Assembly: GCA_016204585.1 (NCBI GenBank)
Contig: JACQKH010000004.1
Coordinates: forward strand, 1 to 34,732
Length of the DNA: 34,732 bases
Direction of reading: 5' to 3'
Origin: Candidatus Kerfeldbacteria bacterium
Lineage (GTDB): Bacteria > Patescibacteriota > Patescibacteriia > SBBC01
This document shows, piece after piece, positions 1,178-31,106 of the stretch. The position numbers were made by a program, and so were the translations under genes. The notes under the pieces were generated by a model, which saw nothing but the letters and a program-made list of their open reading frames with translations, did no database searches and was not told where the DNA came from. The number at the start of each line of letters is the position of its first letter. Positions within the stretch are counted from its first letter, which is position 1.

Positions 1178-3466
1178 ATGTTTATTAAACAATTCGCGAT
1201 AGTTCTGGTGGTGGCGCTATTGCTTACCGCGGGTTTGCCATTGACGCTCCGCGCCGAAAACCAAGCGACGGTAGTAATCAATGAACTGTTGTGGATGGGA
1301 TCGCCGGCCTCGTCGGCGGATGAGTGGATTGAGCTCCGAAACACGACTGATAATGTTGTTGATTTAAGCGGTTGGAAACTGACGCGTCGTTCGTCAGGGT
1401 TGGAAGTTACAATGGTAACGATTCCGAGCGGTAAAAGCGTTGAGCCGCGCGGTTTTTTCTTGATTTCGAATTTCGCCGCCAGTTCGACGAGTACGCAGCT
1501 GAATGTCGAACCGGACGTCGTAGATACGGCGGTGTCGTTGTTGAATTCTGGTCTTGAGGTGAAACTGTACGATGGCGGTGGAGTATTGGTTGATGTGGCA
1601 GACGATGGAGTTGGAACGCCGCTGGCTGGAAAGCTCACGAGCGGGCAGATGTACGCATCCATGGCGCGGAACGGCATTCCGGGCGACGGCACAAAGTCGG
1701 AGCGTTGGCATACCTCGACGACGAGCGTTAACCTTCGACCAGACTCGCCAGTTCTCGGAACGCCGCGAGCGGTGAATGATAACGTTCCGCCGGTGGTGCC
1801 GGCCGTGGCGGATCAAGAGGCGGCGGTTGGTCGAGAGTTGACCTTTGACATTTCGGACGCGTTTGATCCTGACGGCGACGCCTTGGCGTTCCGATGGGAT
1901 TTCGGGGATGGAATTTCCAGTGACGCGGTAGCGCCAAGCCACGCATATGTCGATGCCGGAACGTACTCAGCGTCCGTTGAAGCGAAAGACGCGAGTTCGG
2001 CAACCCGCCTGACATTTTCGGTAATTGTGAAAGCAGCGTCAACGACGCAGCCTGAGTTACCGCCGGTCATGGCCGCCAATGGCCAGTCGATCATCAGCGA
2101 ACTTTTACCAAATCCGGAGGGAGCTGATGATAGTGAGTTTATTGAACTTGGCGCGATCGACGGCGACGTTGACTTGAGCGGCTGGACAGTATCAGACGAG
2201 GGCGGAACAACGTACAAGTTCGCCGCCGGCAGCACTTTGCCAAAGGATTCATTTCTCGTCGTCGCCCGGAAGGACAGTAAAATTGCATTGAATAACAGCG
2301 GCGACGCCGTAACGCTGAAGAAATCAGACGGAACAGTTATTCAGGAAGTGAAATACAGCGAGGCGGAAGAGAGTGCGGCGTATGCGTGGAACGGAGGTGC
2401 GTGGACCTGGACGGCGAAACCGACGCCGGGAGCACCGAACGAGTTCGTCAAAGTGAACCATCCGCCAGAAGCGAAGTTCAGCATTTCGACACGGCGGCGG
2501 GCCAAAGAGGAGATTACCTTCGACGCTTCAGACTCGACTGATCGTGATGGCGATGAGCTGAAGTACTCGTGGGATTTCGGGGACGGGAAGATTGCAACCG
2601 GCCGGATCGTAAAGCACGTATACGATAACGACGGAAACTTGACGGTGCGTTTAACTTTAAAAGACGGCGGCGGGCTGGAGGAGATCGAGGAAAGGGAATT
2701 TGTCGTTCGTCCGGCACTGAAGAAAAAAAGTTCAGCGAAAGCCGGTGGAGCGACAAAAGGAAAAGTTAAGGGCGCGGCCGCGGTCCGCACTTTGTCTGAC
2801 ATTAAGACGGCCTCGTCTGCCACGCCAGTCGCCGTGAATGGATGGGTGAGCGCGGCGCCCGGAGTGCTCGGAGAAAATTTGTTTTATCTATACGATGGGA
2901 CTTCCGGCATGGCCGTCCGGGCGTCCGGCATACTGCCAAAACTTTCGCTAAACGACGCCGTTGAGGTTAAGGGCGAGCGTCGAACCAAAAACGGAGAGGC
3001 CTACATATTAGTGGAAGAAGATAGCGGGGTTGTGGTTAAGGGCGAGCGCCAGGAGGTTGAACCGAGAATAACTGCGGCCGGAGAGGTTGACAGTGAAGCG
3101 GTTGGCGCGCTCGTTCGGGTGACCGGCGAGGTTACCACTCTGAGCGGCAGCCGGTTCGCGATTGACGACGGCACCGGCGAGCTTAGCGTTTATGTCCGCG
3201 CTTCGACTGGTTTCAAACGACCAGCGTTGCGCTCGGGTGACCGCATTGAAGTACGCGGAATCGTTAGCAAAACGACGAGCGGAATCCGCTTGCTGCCGCG
3301 GGTGAAGGAGGACATTAGAATCGTGACGCCAGTGATAAAATCCCCGGAGCAGCCAGTGAATGTTCAGCCAGCGAAGAAGCCGGCAGTGTGGATGTACGTA
3401 GTGGTAGCAGTCGCATTAGTGGCTGGGGCCGGAGTGGGGATGTGGAGGAAGGGAGTGAAGAAGTGA
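1178..3466 (+). CDS. Secreted lamin-tail-domain / PKD-domain protein with OB-fold-like region and C-terminal TM anchor
   Basis: Signal peptide MFIKQFAIVLVVALLLTAGLPLTLRA; two LTD motifs (INELLWMGSPASSADEWIEL, ISELLPNPEGADDSEFIEL); two PKD motifs (WDFGDG); C-terminal hydrophobic helix. Confidence 0.8.
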   Translation: MFIKQFAIVLVVALLLTAGLPLTLRAENQATVVINELLWMGSPASSADEWIELRNTTDNVVDLSGWKLTRRSSGLEVTMVTIPSGKSVEPRGFFLISNFAASSTSTQLNVEPDVVDTAVSLLNSGLEVKLYDGGGVLVDVADDGVGTPLAGKLTSGQMYASMARNGIPGDGTKSERWHTSTTSVNLRPDSPVLGTPRAVNDNVPPVVPAVADQEAAVGRELTFDISDAFDPDGDALAFRWDFGDGISSDAVAPSHAYVDAGTYSASVEAKDASSATRLTFSVIVKAASTTQPELPPVMAANGQSIISELLPNPEGADDSEFIELGAIDGDVDLSGWTVSDEGGTTYKFAAGSTLPKDSFLVVARKDSKIALNNSGDAVTLKKSDGTVIQEVKYSEAEESAAYAWNGGAWTWTAKPTPGAPNEFVKVNHPPEAKFSISTRRRAKEEITFDASDSTDRDGDELKYSWDFGDGKIATGRIVKHVYDNDGNLTVRLTLKDGGGLEEIEEREFVVRPALKKKSSAKAGGATKGKVKGAAAVRTLSDIKTASSATPVAVNGWVSAAPGVLGENLFYLYDGTSGMAVRASGILPKLSLNDAVEVKGERRTKNGEAYILVEEDSGVVVKGERQEVEPRITAAGEVDSEAVGALVRVTGEVTTLSGSRFAIDDGTGELSVYVRASTGFKRPALRSGDRIEVRGIVSKTTSGIRLLPRVKEDIRIVTPVIKSPEQPVNVQPAKKPAVWMYVVVAVALVAGAGVGMWRKGVKK

Positions 3467-3504
3467 ATTATGAATTACGAATTACGAATTATGAATCGTG
3501 AATT
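3465..3504 (+). repeat. AATTATGAATTACGAATT degenerate repeat (left copy)
   Basis: gaattatgaattacgaattacgaattatgaatcgtgaatta. Confidence 0.8.
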
Positions 3505-3895
3505 AAGGGAAATGCGCGAAAAGAAAATCGTTGTTTTTACAGACCTAAACGCATGGAAGGAAGCTCACAAACTTGTAGTATCGATCTATAAACTTACTCG
3601 AAACTTCCCGTCGAGCGAACTATACGGGTCGACTAATCAGATGCGACGATCCGCCCTATCGGTGACGTCTAATATCGCCGAAGGGTTCAGTCGGCAGTCC
3701 TACCGGGAGAAGGTTCATTATTACTCCACATCACTCGGTTCGCTGACCGAATTGCAAAATCAACTCCTGGTGGCTCGGGACGTTGGCCATCTGAGCATCG
3801 CTGCCTACACCGATATTGAAACACTGACAATCGTCGTGCACAAGCTCATTAACGGACTTATAAAAACTTCAAAAGCAATAATTCATAATTCGTAA
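3470..3895 (+). CDS. Four-helix-bundle protein (23S rRNA intervening-sequence / S23 family)
   Basis: LNAWKEAHKLVVSIYKLTRNFPSSELYGSTNQMRRSALSVTSNIAEGFSR matches the family signature. Confidence 0.85.
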   Translation: MNYELRIMNRELREMREKKIVVFTDLNAWKEAHKLVVSIYKLTRNFPSSELYGSTNQMRRSALSVTSNIAEGFSRQSYREKVHYYSTSLGSLTELQNQLLVARDVGHLSIAAYTDIETLTIVVHKLINGLIKTSKAIIHNS

Positions 3896-3900
3896 TTCAT
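3877..3900 (-). repeat. AATTATGAATTACGAATT repeat (right copy, inverted)
   Basis: aataattcataattcgtaattcat is the reverse complement of ATGAATTACGAATTATGAATTATT. Confidence 0.8.
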
Positions 3901-3935
3901 TCTTCAACTACCCTCCGCCGTGCTACAATGTTTTC

Positions 3936-6671
3936 ATGGAGCACAAGCAGAAACTTGTAATCGTGGACGGGAACGCCCTGATTCACCGCAGTTTCCATGC
4001 CCTCCCTCCGCTCTCAACGAAAAAAGGCGAGCTGGTCAACGCGGTCTACGGTTTCGCCGCGGTGCTCTTGAAGATGTTTCGGGAGTTGAAGCCAACGCAC
4101 GTGGTGGTGTGTTTTGATCGACGAGAAAAAACCTTCCGCGAGAAAGAATTTGCTGAGTACAAGGCGACGCGCGTTAAAGCGCCTCAAGAATTGTATGATC
4201 AGATTCCGCGCGTTAAACAATTGGTGGAGAGTTTTAACATCCCGATTCTGGAAAAAGCCGGGTATGAGGCGGACGACCTGATCGGCACCATTGCGGCCAA
4301 GGTCGATGGCGTGGAAAAGGTGATTGTGACCGGCGACCAAGATACCCTCCAGCTCGTAGACGATGAGGTTAGTGTCTACACTTTGAAGAAGGGCTTGGGC
4401 GAGACCATCACGTATAACCCGTCCAGCGTGAAGGAGCGCTTCGGCATCACGCCGGGACAACTGATTGATTTCAAGGCCTTGCGCGGCGATCCGTCAGACA
4501 ACATCCCGGGCGTGGACGGCATTGGCGAGAAAACCGCCGCAGTGCTGCTGCAGAAGTTCGGTACGCTGGAAAAATTATATGAAGCGCTGGAAAAAGATTC
4601 GCCACCAGTAAAAAAATTGCCAGCCGGCGTGCGCGAAAAACTACGGAAAGACAAAAAGAACGCTTTTCTTTCCAAGCGGCTGGCCACCATCGTAAAAAAC
4701 GTGCCGATTCAATTCTCACTGGCGGAGGCGGCGCGTAAACGCTACGACCGACAGCAGGTCGTAAAACTCTTTCAGGATCTGGAGTTTACCTCACTTTTAA
4801 GCAAGCTCCCTGAGGATGGAAAGGAAAAACATCAGGCGGCCCTCGATCTGCAAAGCCACGATGTTCCGCGCAAAAAAGGCCATGACTATCAGCTGGTGGC
4901 TGACAGTCAGAGTTTTAAGCGTCTCTTGACCTTGTTGAAAGTCCAGCCGGCCCTCACGATTGACACCGAAACGACCGGCCTTGACCCGTTGCAAGCGCGA
5001 ATTCTCGGCATCAGTTTTTCGTGGAAAGAGGGACTGGCTTACTTCGCGTCTTTGCAGGGGGACTGGCTTGAGCAGCTCAAACCGATCCTGGAGGATCCGA
5101 AAATTGCCAAACACGGCCACAACCTAAAGTATGATTTGAGCGTGTTGAAAACCGCCGGCATTGATCTTCGAGGCATGACTTTTGACACCATGATCGCGTC
5201 GTACTTGTTAAATCCCGGAAGTCGGGCGCACGGCCTGGACCAGCTCGTGTTTGAGGAATTTGGGTATGAGATGCAGCCGATTGAGGCGTTGATTGGGCCG
5301 CCGGGGAAAAAACAGTTACCGATGGAATCCGTGCCGGTTGAAAAATTGTCATGGTATTCCTGCGAGGATGCGGATTACACTGAACGGTTAGTGAAGAAGT
5401 TACAACCGCCGCTAGCCAAAGCTCGATTGATAAAGCTTTTTGACGAAATTGAGATGCCGTTGTCAGCGGTGCTCGCCACGATGGAGCGGAACGGCGTGAA
5501 GATTGACACTGATTTTCTCCGCCAGATGAGCAAAGAGGTCGGTCAGAAGCTCAAGCGCATCGAGGCAGCGATTTTCAAACAAGCCGGCCTCGAGTTTAAC
5601 GTTTCATCACCAATTCAGTTAAAGGAAGTGTTGTTTGAGAAGTTGAACATTTCTACCAAGGGACTCGGTAAAACCAAGACCGGAATCTCGACCGCGGCGG
5701 ACCAGCTCGAGAAGCTGAAAGGTGAACACCCGATCGTGGAGAAAATCCTGGAGTACCGGGAATTGGCCAAGATGAAATCAACCTACCTTGATGCCTTGCC
5801 CGAACTGGTCAACCCGGTTGACGGTCGCGTGCACACCAGCTTCAACCAGACCGTCGCCGCCACTGGCCGACTTTCCTCGTCGGATCCCAACTTGCAGAAC
5901 ATCCCCATCCGTTCCGAGCTGGGCGCCGAGATTCGCAAAGCGTTTATTGCCGAACGCGGGAATCGGATTCTGGCCGCCGATTACTCTCAATTCGAACTCC
6001 GGATCGCCGCCTCCATTGCGAACGTCAAGAAAATGATCGAGTCTTTCAGGGAAAACGAAGATATCCACGCCCGGACGGCCGCCGAGATTCACGGGATACC
6101 GTTGGACAAAGTAACCAAGGAGATTCGCCGCACCGCTAAGGAAGTCAACTTCGGCGTCCTCTACGGCATGGGTCCGTCCGGATTGGCCCAGCGACAGAGG
6201 ATTAGTCGGGAAGAGGCCCAGGCTTTTATCGAAAAATACTACGTGGTCTACCATGAATTGAAGGAGTGGATCGAAGAGACGATTGCGCTCAGCCACAAGC
6301 TTGGGTACGCGGAAACACTGTTCGGTCGACGGCGTTACTTGCCTGAGCTTCACTCCTCAAATCCGATGATCCGGGCGGCGGCCGAACGCATGGCCGTGAA
6401 CATGCCGACGCAATGAACGCAGGCCGACCTCATCAAGATGGCGATGGTTCGCTTGGCTGAGACGTTACCAAAGGTTTCGCCTGACTCAAAAATGATCCTT
6501 CAGGTGCACGACGAGCTGGTGTTCGAAGTGCCGGAAAGTGACGTGCACAAGGTCGGTAAGATAGTGAAGGAGACCATGGAAGGCGTCTACAAGTTGAAAG
6601 TGCCGATTGTGGTGGAAGTGGAAGTGGGACGGTCGTGGGGGGAGACGAGACCCCTCGGAGGGAAAACCTGA
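3936..6671 (+). CDS. polA: DNA polymerase I, interrupted by in-frame TGA at 6414-6416
   Basis: 5'-nuclease, 3'-5' exonuclease and polymerase domains in ORF 3936..6416. The same frame continues to 6671 with [13 protein letters not shown]...[15 protein letters not shown] (motif C). Confidence 0.9.
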
Positions 6672-6954: not shown

Positions 6955-7260
6955 TCAGACAGGCCTGGGACGGGGCGGTCGCGAACCACGGACGATCGTT
7001 TCCCACTCGACGTCCGAGGGATCGGATGCATGGTTGAGCTCGAGGTTCTCCACGTCGCGGTCAGCCGCGGGGATTCCGAAGAGCTCGGGGGCTTGAACCG
7101 GCACGCCAGTGAACAGCGGATTCCTGCACCGGCTTGGCAATACGCGGTCGACGTCGTCGACATGCGGCGCTATCGATCCTTGAGGCTTGGTTCTCGGCCG
7201 GTGCGGGCACGAGTGACCGAGGGTGAGTTCCTGACCACACTGACATACGGGGAGCGTCAT
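6955..7260 (-). CDS. Small hypothetical protein with CxC...C-H motif (101 aa)
   Basis: MTLPVCQCGQELTLGHSCPHRPR...; GGAGGG SD upstream of ATG7260; promoter-like TTGACA-N17-TAGCGT upstream on the minus strand. Confidence 0.5.
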   Translation of the reverse strand: MTLPVCQCGQELTLGHSCPHRPRTKPQGSIAPHVDDVDRVLPSRCRNPLFTGVPVQAPELFGIPAADRDVENLELNHASDPSDVEWETIVRGSRPPRPRPV

Positions 7261-7328
7261 GTGCAAACCCTCCATCTGGCGGATTTGGAGTTTGTGTTTC
7301 GTTTTCAGTGTTGCTACGATAACGCTTG

Positions 7329-7357
7329 ACGCTAGCATTGTCCATACAAAATGTCAA
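7329..7357 (-). promoter_or_regulatory. sigma70-like promoter (minus strand)
   Basis: TTGACA (7352-7357 rc), 17-nt spacer, TAGCGT (7329-7334 rc). Confidence 0.35.
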
Positions 7358-7364
7358 TCGCATG

Positions 7365-7581
7365 ATCCCGTTAGAAAGACCATCTTCATCCACTACCGAA
7401 GATTACATTATGAACGTTTTACCCACGCACCAGAAAGCCATGGGTGTAAACCCAGCACCATGATTTTGGTGCTGGGTAAACCCGTGGATGAATGGCTCTC
7501 GGTGCGGGGTTCCGCTCCACGGAACCCGTATCGAGAGAAACCACGGCCGTGGAGCTTCACAAGCTGACTTTCTAACGGGAT
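7365..7581. repeat. Compound palindromic element with 14-bp terminal inverted repeats
   Basis: ATCCCGTTAGAAAG (7365-7378) / CTTTCTAACGGGAT (7568-7581); inner ACCCAGCACCA-tgattt-TGGTGCTGGGT (7450-7477) and CCACGGCCGTGG. Confidence 0.75.
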
Positions 7582-26865: not shown

Positions 26866-27437
26866 TGAAATTACAACTCCTGTCGAGAAAGAGGAGTGAA
26901 CGAGGCGTTAGCGTCGTGGAAGTGCTTATTGCCTTAAGCATCGCGGGAATTGTGTTTGCCAGCATCGGTAACCTCGTACTCGCGGTGCAGCGCATCGATC
27001 ATTCGAGCGGGCTTCGGGAACAGGCACTCGCCTATGCTAAGCAGTCGCTCGAGGTCGTGAATGACATTAAGGATACGGCGTTCACCTGCCGCTGCAGCAC
27101 TGGCGATTGCACCACCACCCCGGGACACTGCCAGAAAACTAGCGGTGATACCCAGACCTGTCCGCTGCTGTCCGGTTACACGAGCTGCTGGACGCAGTTT
27201 ACGAATGGGGTCGGTTCAAATTCGCCGCTGCATGTTCAGAACAGCGGCGGTTCCTGGAAATTGGTAGCCGGACAGGATACGTCGGATCCGACCTTTACCA
27301 GAGAGCTTTCAATTACGAACCAAGGAGGGGATTCGAACGTCAAGCAGGTTTTGGGAACGGTAAGCTGGAACGAGCGCGGTGTGGCGAAGAGCGTAGCATT
27401 GACTTTAATTCTGACTGGCTGGAAAAACCTTCCATGA
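26865..27437 (+). CDS. Prepilin-type minor pilin
   Basis: ERGVSVVEVLIALSIAGIVFASIGNLVLAVQ. Confidence 0.75.
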   Translation: MKLQLLSRKRSERGVSVVEVLIALSIAGIVFASIGNLVLAVQRIDHSSGLREQALAYAKQSLEVVNDIKDTAFTCRCSTGDCTTTPGHCQKTSGDTQTCPLLSGYTSCWTQFTNGVGSNSPLHVQNSGGSWKLVAGQDTSDPTFTRELSITNQGGDSNVKQVLGTVSWNERGVAKSVALTLILTGWKNLP

Positions 27438-27913
27438 AGAAGTTTCATTCTGATATCCGTGGATTTACTTTAATGGAGTTGCTCGTGTACATGAGCATTG
27501 TGACTATTGCCACCTTGATTTTTATGAGTTTTGCCGTTGACGTCACGACCAGCGCTGGCAAGTCGAGAAGGTTGAGGGAACTTCAAGACAATGCGCGACT
27601 CCTGATTTCTCGAGTAACGCAAGACATTCGCACCGCTGATGACGTGGCGGTGGCTGGCAGCGAGCTGCGGGTTACGAAATCCGGCGTGACCACCAGATAC
27701 TTTTTGGACAGCGGCGCGGTAAAATACGACGACGGAGTTGGCTCTCCGCTTGCTTCGCTCTCGACGGATTCGGTGAACATCAGCCAGTGGGATTGGCAGA
27801 AGACCGCCACCTCCGTTTCGGTCGCCTTGACTGTGCAGGAAAAGACCTCTGCCAGCTCGCCGCAGCAGGTCGAGCTGTCTTCAACCATTGTGCCGAGAAA
27901 GTTGTTGTTCTAA
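27434..27913 (+). CDS. Prepilin-type minor pilin (PulJ/PilW-like)
   Basis: IRGFTLMELLVYMSIVTIATLIFMSFAVDV. Confidence 0.75.
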   Translation: MKKFHSDIRGFTLMELLVYMSIVTIATLIFMSFAVDVTTSAGKSRRLRELQDNARLLISRVTQDIRTADDVAVAGSELRVTKSGVTTRYFLDSGAVKYDDGVGSPLASLSTDSVNISQWDWQKTATSVSVALTVQEKTSASSPQQVELSSTIVPRKLLF

Positions 27914-27916
27914 CGC

Positions 27917-29392
27917 ATGAAATTTTTTTCACCCAGCCCCACGGAAGCCACGGGTGTTAACCCGTGGAGGAAGTGGAGAAGTAATCCCGAAGGGCAACCA
28001 CCCCGAGGCCACGGCTGTAAACCCAGCACCATGATTTTGGTGCTGGGTAAAGCCGTGGAGCTGGGTTCACCATCAAACCAAGACGGAGCAATCGCCATCA
28101 TGACGGTCATGTGGGTGTCGGTGTTCTCGTTGGCAATTCTCGGTACTGTGAGTACCCTGGCAGTCGGCGAGTTGCAAATGGGCGGCGCCGAAGTCGCCTC
28201 GGAAAGGACGTATTACGCGGCGGAGGCGGGACTGAATCAGACGCTGTATGATTTGATCCGCAATCCCGTTCCCGGATCGTCGTCGCTGACCGTTGACGGC
28301 GTGAACGTCAACGTGGACGCGCAGCCGGACGCCGTCAATCCCTTTCGGCTGATTATCATCTCGAAAGCTACCGAACCAGGGACAAATTCGATCCGCACGC
28401 TTGAGCTGGCGGTGGTCACCTCGTCGTTCGGCGGAATCCACAGCGCTGTCCAGACCGGTGGCGGAGGACTGGATATGGACCCGGAAGCAGAGGTTCGAGG
28501 AAATGTTTACGCAAATGGGACGATTACCGGTAAGGTACAAGGTTCGAAGAAGTCGAAGATTTTGGGGGATGTGTACTCGTCGGGACCCATTGGGCAAGTG
28601 AACAACATCGATGTATCCGAAGATCCGCAGCTCCATGGTAAAGACGTTCATGCGCACGACATTGTGAAGACGAACATGCAAGATGGAAGCGCGTACTACA
28701 CAAACATTGACGGAGCATCACGAGTTGGTGGACAGCCGTGCAGTTCGAACCCGCTGTGCTTTCCAGGATTTCCAGACCCGGTAGTCACTCCGTACGAAAT
28801 TCCCTACGATTACTACAAGCCCGTTGCCGGAGGAACACTATACGATCAAGCGGCTGCAGGTGTTTCCACGCCCGGGGATTTCATCGTTGACAATTCCACC
28901 GGCGACCGTTCTCTGGGTCCAACCATTGTGCAGGGCGATCTCGAGGTGAAGAAGGGGAAGATCTTGACATTGACGGGAACCGTCTGGGTCCAAGGGAAGA
29001 TCGAGATCGAGGATCCAAACTCGACGATCAACGTCGTCGCAACGTATAACGAGAATTCTGAGGCGCTGGTTGCCGAAGGCGCGATCAAGATGAAGAACAA
29101 CGCGAACATTGCCGGTTCCGGTCATCCCCTCAGTTTTCTCCTTGTCATCTCGCTCTCGAATGCGAGCCCAGCAATGGAAGTCCGGAACAATACGAGTTCT
29201 GCAATATTCTTCGCCCCGAATGGGAAACTTGAGCTTATCAATGGCAATGACCTCAACAACGCAACGGGCGACATGGTGCACCTCAATAATAACGTCGTCG
29301 TCACGTACGATCAGAAGTTGGCGTTCCTTACCATTCCCGGCGGCGGCTCGAAGGTCGTGACGCCCGAGAAAACAAGCTGGAAGGAGAAATAG
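27917..29392 (+). CDS. PilX-like minor pilin / pilus-associated protein with repeat-derived N-terminus
   Basis: DGAIAIMTVMWVSVFSLAILGTVSTLAVGELQMGGAEVASERTYYAAEAGLNQTLYDL; first ~50 codons largely encoded by a palindromic repeat. Confidence 0.7.
   Translation: MKFFSPSPTEATGVNPWRKWRSNPEGQPPRGHGCKPSTMILVLGKAVELGSPSNQDGAIAIMTVMWVSVFSLAILGTVSTLAVGELQMGGAEVASERTYYAAEAGLNQTLYDLIRNPVPGSSSLTVDGVNVNVDAQPDAVNPFRLIIISKATEPGTNSIRTLELAVVTSSFGGIHSAVQTGGGGLDMDPEAEVRGNVYANGTITGKVQGSKKSKILGDVYSSGPIGQVNNIDVSEDPQLHGKDVHAHDIVKTNMQDGSAYYTNIDGASRVGGQPCSSNPLCFPGFPDPVVTPYEIPYDYYKPVAGGTLYDQAAAGVSTPGDFIVDNSTGDRSLGPTIVQGDLEVKKGKILTLTGTVWVQGKIEIEDPNSTINVVATYNENSEALVAEGAIKMKNNANIAGSGHPLSFLLVISLSNASPAMEVRNNTSSAIFFAPNGKLELINGNDLNNATGDMVHLNNNVVVTYDQKLAFLTIPGGGSKVVTPEKTSWKEK
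27932..28065. repeat. Compound palindromic element inside CDS
   Basis: CCCAGCCCCACGG/CCGTGGAGCTGGG outer arms; CCACGGG-tgttaa-CCCGTGG; ACCCAGCACCA-tgattt-TGGTGCTGGGT (28021-28048). Confidence 0.85.
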
Positions 29393-30638: not shown

Positions 30639-30650
30639 AGTAGAATGTAG

Positions 30651-30685
30651 AATTATGAATTACGAATTATGAATTACGAATTACG
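30651..30685 (+). repeat. AATTATGAATTACGAATT degenerate repeat (third copy)
   Basis: aattatgaattacgaattatgaattacgaattacg. Confidence 0.85.
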
Positions 30686-31106
30686 GAGAAAGCGAGGCGT
30701 GAAGTGGGGCGTGTGGGTGTTTCCTATTTTTTCACTTCTACTTCTTGGCATCTCTTGCAAATCAAAATACGGCTCAGTCAGCGTGAACGTCAATGCGGCG
30801 GCCGGCGCCGTGATCAATGCGGCCAAGTCCGTGAACACGAATTCCGTGAAACAGGTTGTCACGAGAGAAGCAGCGGTGATTGAAGCCAAAGCGATCTACG
30901 TAAAGCTTGAATCTCAAGGCACCGATTTTTCCCAAGGGCCCTGCATTTCCAACAACCTGCTTCCCGATTGGGTGGCGGACGTGGCGCACAACCCGCGACA
31001 GCCGGTGGACGATCAACCGGCCAATCAGTGCAGCGCATACCGCGAAGGCCAAGCGCGTCATTTTGTGGAACTTGACCCGGACGGTCAGCTCATCCGCGCC
31101 CAATAA
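30669..31106 (+). CDS. Lipoprotein/secreted protein with NVN-type linker
   Basis: Signal/lipobox-like VFPIFSLLLLGISCKSK; SVNVNAAAGAVINAAKSVNTNS. Confidence 0.6.
   Translation: MNYELRRKRGVKWGVWVFPIFSLLLLGISCKSKYGSVSVNVNAAAGAVINAAKSVNTNSVKQVVTREAAVIEAKAIYVKLESQGTDFSQGPCISNNLLPDWVADVAHNPRQPVDDQPANQCSAYREGQARHFVELDPDGQLIRAQ

Follow-up and report, generated by a model that had tools for sequence, protein, structure and literature searches.

In this study, we analysed a 34,732-nt stretch of Candidatus Kerfeldbacteria DNA (the window), in which the open frame of a PilX-like prepilin gene runs through a palindromic element of 46 codons. We propose that a mobile, non-coding palindromic element, MITE- or REP-like, probably inserted at TTCAC in the leader of this prepilin, and that it is tolerated because the insert is removed together with the leader. 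The original prediction described a palindrome shared by two sites of the window; that reading did not extend to a mobile family, its target rule or its recurrence in prepilin leaders elsewhere. All genomes compared are draft assemblies, the window's own being 1.04 Mb in 80 contigs.

A palindromic unit within a prepilin leader

The PilX-like gene is the final pseudopilin gene of a type IV pilus / type II secretion-like operon; in profile searches its PilX_N match scores under the cut-off of that family. The features to which we refer are listed below.

27434..27913, + strand: upstream prepilin gene (GFTLMELLVYMSI; PF07963 match)
27917..29392, + strand: PilX-like prepilin ORF, 491 aa (DUF7305 and weak PilX_N match)
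27928..27931, + strand: left TTCA direct repeat (TTCAC with the next base)
27932..28069, + strand: inserted palindromic element of the A family, 138 nt or 46 codons including the nested hairpin (99% identical copy on contig C75; frame table)
27948..27967, + strand: first inner hairpin of the element, CCACGGGTGTTAACCCGTGG (fold)
28009..28058, + strand: second inner hairpin, CCACGGCTGTAAA...GCCGTGG, with the nested element in its loop (fold; empty form CCACGGCTGTAAAGCCGTGG in genome G002)
28022..28051, + strand: nested hairpin element H, 30 nt or 10 codons, CCCAGCACCATGATTTTGGTGCTGGG + TAAA, with TAAA repeats on both sides
28031..28033, + strand: in-frame ATG from the nested hairpin, a possible alternative start
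28066..28069, + strand: right TTCA direct repeat
7422..7560, + strand: B-family element upstream of holA, left TTTAC, right TTCAC, carrying the same H (copies on contigs C18, C23 and C10; partial copy at the contig end of C5)
7451..7480, + strand: nested H inside the B element

Translated from 27917, the ORF reads MKFFS, then 46 palindrome-coded residues, then PSNQDGAIAIMTVMWVSVFSLAIL. The earlier estimate of about 45 repeat-derived residues in an open frame thus becomes exactly 46 codons, with the ORF open throughout, and the bounds given at the time (27932-28065) were correct save for the 4-nt terminal repeat. Within the pilX frame the element has no stop and its length is a multiple of three, an open frame being expected fairly often (19% of shuffled 138-nt units are open in that frame). 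Given that TTCA stands just before the unit and again closes it, the insert-free gene would be ATGAAATTTTTTTCACCATCAAACCAAGAC, that is MKFFSPSNQDG/AIAIM (the slash marks the predicted cleavage site). Such a leader is as short as those of relatives. The closest matching pilX genes (G021/G025, same class) open with MIRKIKTNQKG/AIAIL and MFKINKLGKPSDQHPHG/AIALL, and the comparison of starts across relatives that had been proposed gave leaders 8-18 residues long, each with a terminal G and none with the element. Together, the short leaders of relatives and the insert-free reading identify the 46 residues as an insert in the leader. The class III signal is recognizable by sequence (QDG/AIAIMTVMWVSVFSLAIL), a Gly-ended leader followed by a hydrophobic helix.

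The leaders of prepilins reside in the cytoplasm, differ in length, and are cleaved off there at a terminal Gly or Ala (PMC10191384). In the mechanism that we propose, a palindromic element would have inserted at TTCAC within the leader-coding part of the gene; translation of the prepilin would begin at ATG 27917 and give a leader of about 57 residues, and the prepilin peptidase would cut after QDG, before AIAIM, taking the whole insert off. The mature pilin would then be unchanged and the insertion tolerated. Leaders that are cytoplasmic, variable and removed offer a simple explanation of such tolerance, and the data are best explained if palindromic mobile elements persist in those genes in which the peptide that they add becomes part of the prepilin leader and is cleaved off with it. 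Of the suggestion that the repeat had been exapted as a leader, the in-frame leader insertion absent from relatives stands; exaptation itself is unneeded, as a tolerated insertion fits a leader that is expected to be removed.

Element families, nested hairpins and the target rule

The A element is a 108-nt hairpin element, and in the window copy a 30-nt second hairpin is nested in one of its loops. Searches recovered about ten A copies in the window's own genome; the prepilin location is one of these, the others being mostly intergenic. The copy on C75, another contig of the same genome, is 99% identical over 147 nt and lies inside a membrane-protein ORF, its frame there containing a stop. G002, a Kerfeldbacteria-type genome of the same family, holds five A copies; copies there measure exactly 108 nt and lack the nested hairpin. 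TTCA flanks the tabulated A copies on the right in 14/14 and on the left in 13/14, with uniform orientation. In a contig search, the exact 17-nt element end occurred at five places in one Candidatus Kerfeldbacteria assembly; scattered matches in other phyla are probably due to chance. Plasmid and phage collections gave no match. Pattern matches in viral contigs were discarded: one looked unrelated, and a 19-mer match was one conserved phage sequence in the four records examined.

The original prediction rested on a 35-nt core (28017-28051) shared with 7446-7480. The two are indeed identical, within a 61-nt repeat at 89% identity that had 0 matches in 100 shuffles, and the core corresponds to a separate 30-nt element, H, lying within hairpin loops. 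The A copies of 108 and 138 nt form an exact empty/filled pair for H; in a further copy (C56) H occupies the other hairpin loop, with TTAA on both sides. All H copies recovered from the window's own genome sit in loops of A or B elements. Since duplication accounts for part of the A+H and B+H copies, they amount to only some three independent H insertions. A different hairpin module, of CCGAAGTAGCTTCGGC type, lies in loops of A and B elements at two loci of the same genome (L003 on C35, L006 on C23); loop-in-loop nesting thus covers more than one hairpin type. In the window, the B element at 7422-7560 occupies the gap before holA. An ORF at 7259-7567 had been noted for reading the same peptide, as it does; it is hardly a credible gene, matching no Pfam family and owing its hairpin to the B element. 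The B element stands between the arms of a 14-nt inverted repeat (ATCCCGTTAGAAAG at 7365-7378, CTTTCTAACGGGAT at 7568-7581), which reaches to the holA start codon.

More generally, the hairpins take the form TTNA(C)-CCCAGC...GCTGGG-TTNA(C). A pattern scan found them in 30/381 genomes of the class, reversed-pattern controls giving one match altogether. When flanks were read, 31 of 60 class-wide hairpins had an exact 4-nt direct repeat, TTNA or its complement; the remainder include many resembling ordinary terminators, in which an A run and a T run stand on opposite sides. N is the same at both ends in most hairpins, and the repeated N differs among copies (T, C and G in G360; T and A for H). 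The varying N looks like target duplication, although the C/T mixtures in prepilins and the unequal B ends may instead fit a TTNAC carried by the element. About 120 nt upstream from one A-type element of the window's own genome there is a solitary hairpin, TTGA-CCCAGCCCACTTTTCGTAAAAAAAGTGGGCTGGG-TTGA (L105, C67:13545-13583).

The window holds other repeats. Copies of GAATTATGAATTACGAATTACG, direct and inverted (3465-3516, 3879-3908 and 30643-30694), flank a gene for a four-helix protein of the 23S rRNA intervening-sequence type (3470-3895) and recur before the ORF at 30669-31106; this is possibly another mobile unit. A polA-like ORF (3936-6416) stops at an in-frame TGA (6414-6416; ...MAVNMPTQ*TQADLIKMAM...), after which homologous-looking sequence goes on in the same frame, and so the gene appears interrupted, recoded or mis-sequenced there.

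Prepilin leaders of other genomes and candidate movers of the elements

In genome G360, type IV prepilin genes contain 8/10 hairpins, placed precisely at the GFTLIE codons (for example, MHKEKKGFTQHHFLSGSHGSRIVSSNKSGARKLGLPSTTFSTKSGAG/FTLIEL and MKTANGFTQHHFSSGSHVSRLVSSNKSGARKLGLPSTTFSTKSGAG/FTLIEL); the chance figure for this one genome is about 3e-11 if 8% of it is assumed to be intergenic. Read together, the final GCTGGG of the hairpin and the repeated TTYAC give A-G-F-T, so that insertion rebuilds the G/FTLIE peptidase site. Hairpins at GFT codons likewise occur in G077 (two genes), G102, G001 (of the window's family) and G731. Each of the distances from original to rebuilt GFT (120, 120, 123, 111, 108, 27, 231 and 84 nt) is divisible by three, and the frames are open; this frame statistic is not fully independent, given common ancestry among the in-frame prepilin cases. 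The window insertion, at S-P, has no GFT motif, and rebuilding of the peptidase site as in G360 does not apply; location and frame are common to both situations, the GFT target is not. A strict prepilin-hairpin pattern had 0/380 matches phylum-wide, in a sample that did not include G360 and G077, indicating that the prepilin location is not general.

Less likely than not, the elements are miniature IS200/IS605 or RAYT (Y1 HUH) derivatives, moved as single-stranded hairpins at TTNAC, a possibility compatible with tolerated leader insertion. The A copies are strand-specific in orientation relative to TTCAC, IS200/605 cleavage sites resemble TTNAC-like sites, and the window's own genome has four RAYT-like genes. 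Yet a CCCAGC...GCTGGG hairpin flanks 0/27 Y1 loci examined (the four own-genome ones and 23 others), and RAYT/Y1 genes were set aside as the mover on that account; moreover, G360 and G124 carry hairpins with no Y1 match, in bins 80-88% complete, and the N of TTNA is usually equal at both ends. Within a RAYT-like gene of the window's own genome (C4, L035 1453-2049) lies an in-frame segment that is strongly palindromic, SNLPQRTLERVRCGRGRTARLPQ, and may be another hairpin inserted into coding sequence.

No classical transposase with these ends was seen. Generic GIY-YIG genes were rejected as the mover as well, matching arms being present at only one of 30 loci, in G077. At this locus (L217, reverse complement 1127-1990) matching 17-nt arms bracket a GIY-YIG gene within a prepilin gene, forming a full-length copy; the GIY-YIG frame continues through the hairpin into the pilin, and Pfam recognizes GIY-YIG and a weak N_methyl match in one ORF. 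At a G360 locus (L221, 1203-3020) a related GIY-YIG ORF (53/81 residues identical) is fused in frame via the hairpin to a prepilin, with N_methyl above cut-off and degenerate arms. These are two fusions among some 48 GIY-YIG matches, and no GIY-YIG relatives were met in viral contigs. We regard the fusions as a lead, not proof, and the GIY-YIG gene may be a passenger.

It also seems unlikely that pilX starts downstream, at ATG 28031 in the nested hairpin or at ATG 28100, with the element acting as a 5' UTR hairpin that controls its translation, as the original prediction allowed. The fold is very stable (-78.6 kcal/mol for the 151-nt region, z = -7.2 versus shuffles) and both ATGs are in frame. 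Against this, ATG 27917 lies only 3 nt past the stop of gene 27434-27913 in a tightly packed operon, relatives start 8-18 residues before the G, and starts at 28100 or 28109 lose the G/A site, the former with part of the hydrophobic helix. An obvious ribosome-binding site precedes none of the starts, an Rfam search gave no family near a cut-off, and in G360, G077b and G001b leader plus insert are open in frame from an upstream ATG. ATG 28031, inside the element, may be used as a start, but the element would then still lie in the leader.

Recruitment of the hairpins by the host as a functional pilin-gene module, for translation regulation or as recombination sites for pilin reshuffling, is comparably doubtful. 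The strong prepilin concentration in G360, independent occurrence in several families and tandem re-insertion at one and the same site (C44, C56) would suit it; however, 10/18 N_methyl-type genes of G360 are without a hairpin, hairpin-bearing leaders vary in length and interior, and most elements of G002 and of the window's own genome lie outside pilins. Equally improbable is a family that includes autonomous elements encoding a GIY-YIG nuclease and targeting GFTLIE codons of prepilin genes, in which the nuclease would be made as an N-terminal extension of the prepilin and freed by the prepilin peptidase, the window-type hairpins being non-autonomous derivatives. An artefact of assembly or annotation, in which a repeat-mediated join placed the element in pilX, is highly improbable: the genome is a MAG in 80 contigs with a 99% identical copy on C75, but both flanks belong to the same pilX gene in the pilus operon, the junction restores a normal leader, and the G360, G077, G001, G102 and G731 cases come from independent assemblies.

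Relation to known palindromic elements

Likened by description, the closest known kind is the Rickettsia palindromic elements (review PMC10969869), which are likewise multicopy palindromes of ~100-150 nt, in frame in protein genes that gain a repeat-coded peptide. Target, host and location differ: the present elements have TTNA(C) direct repeats and hairpins nested in hairpin loops, belong to another phylum, and have their coding insertions concentrated in prepilin leaders. With MITEs they share short length, the lack of coding capacity, terminal inverted repeats (here CCCAGC/GCTGGG arms), short direct repeats (TTNA) and multiple copies; yet no parental transposase was found beyond the candidate GIY-YIG gene between 17-nt arms in G077, orientation is fixed relative to an asymmetric target, and the B family has unequal ends, TTTAC and TTCAC. 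REP/BIME/REPIN sequences with RAYT are also imperfect palindromes, modular or composite, and RAYT-like genes exist in the same genomes, whereas here no RAYT gene has the present ends, there is no GTAG tag, and some copies lie in coding sequence. The repetitive or double-hairpin elements of fungal and sponge mitochondria are mobile GC-rich hairpins with at least one stem-loop, scattered in the genomes of close relatives (PMC2800124); the present ones are bacterial, with defined direct repeats, loop-in-loop nesting and a prepilin-leader location. Finally, Nematomorpha mitochondria contain long inverted repeats within protein-coding genes (PMC6649704), but these are perfect repeats under active maintenance and not a dispersed insertion family.

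From what was found, the in-frame selfish palindromes of bacterial genes are best documented in Rickettsia. The open-access literature yielded no account of elements of this kind, whether from Patescibacteria or from prepilin leaders, a result that is weak for the subscription literature, most of which lay outside the search. If the GIY-YIG proposal were true, a host protease would take the element out of the protein product, in place of RNA or protein splicing. Overall, the Patescibacteria cases recurring at the prepilin peptidase site suggest a reason for survival, namely that the added peptide is cut off, and offer a ready test of which coding positions are tolerant of mobile DNA. Where long prepilin leaders are predicted in these genomes, they may derive from repeats, and a mobile element may be connected with the small GIY-YIG proteins that abound in Patescibacteria.
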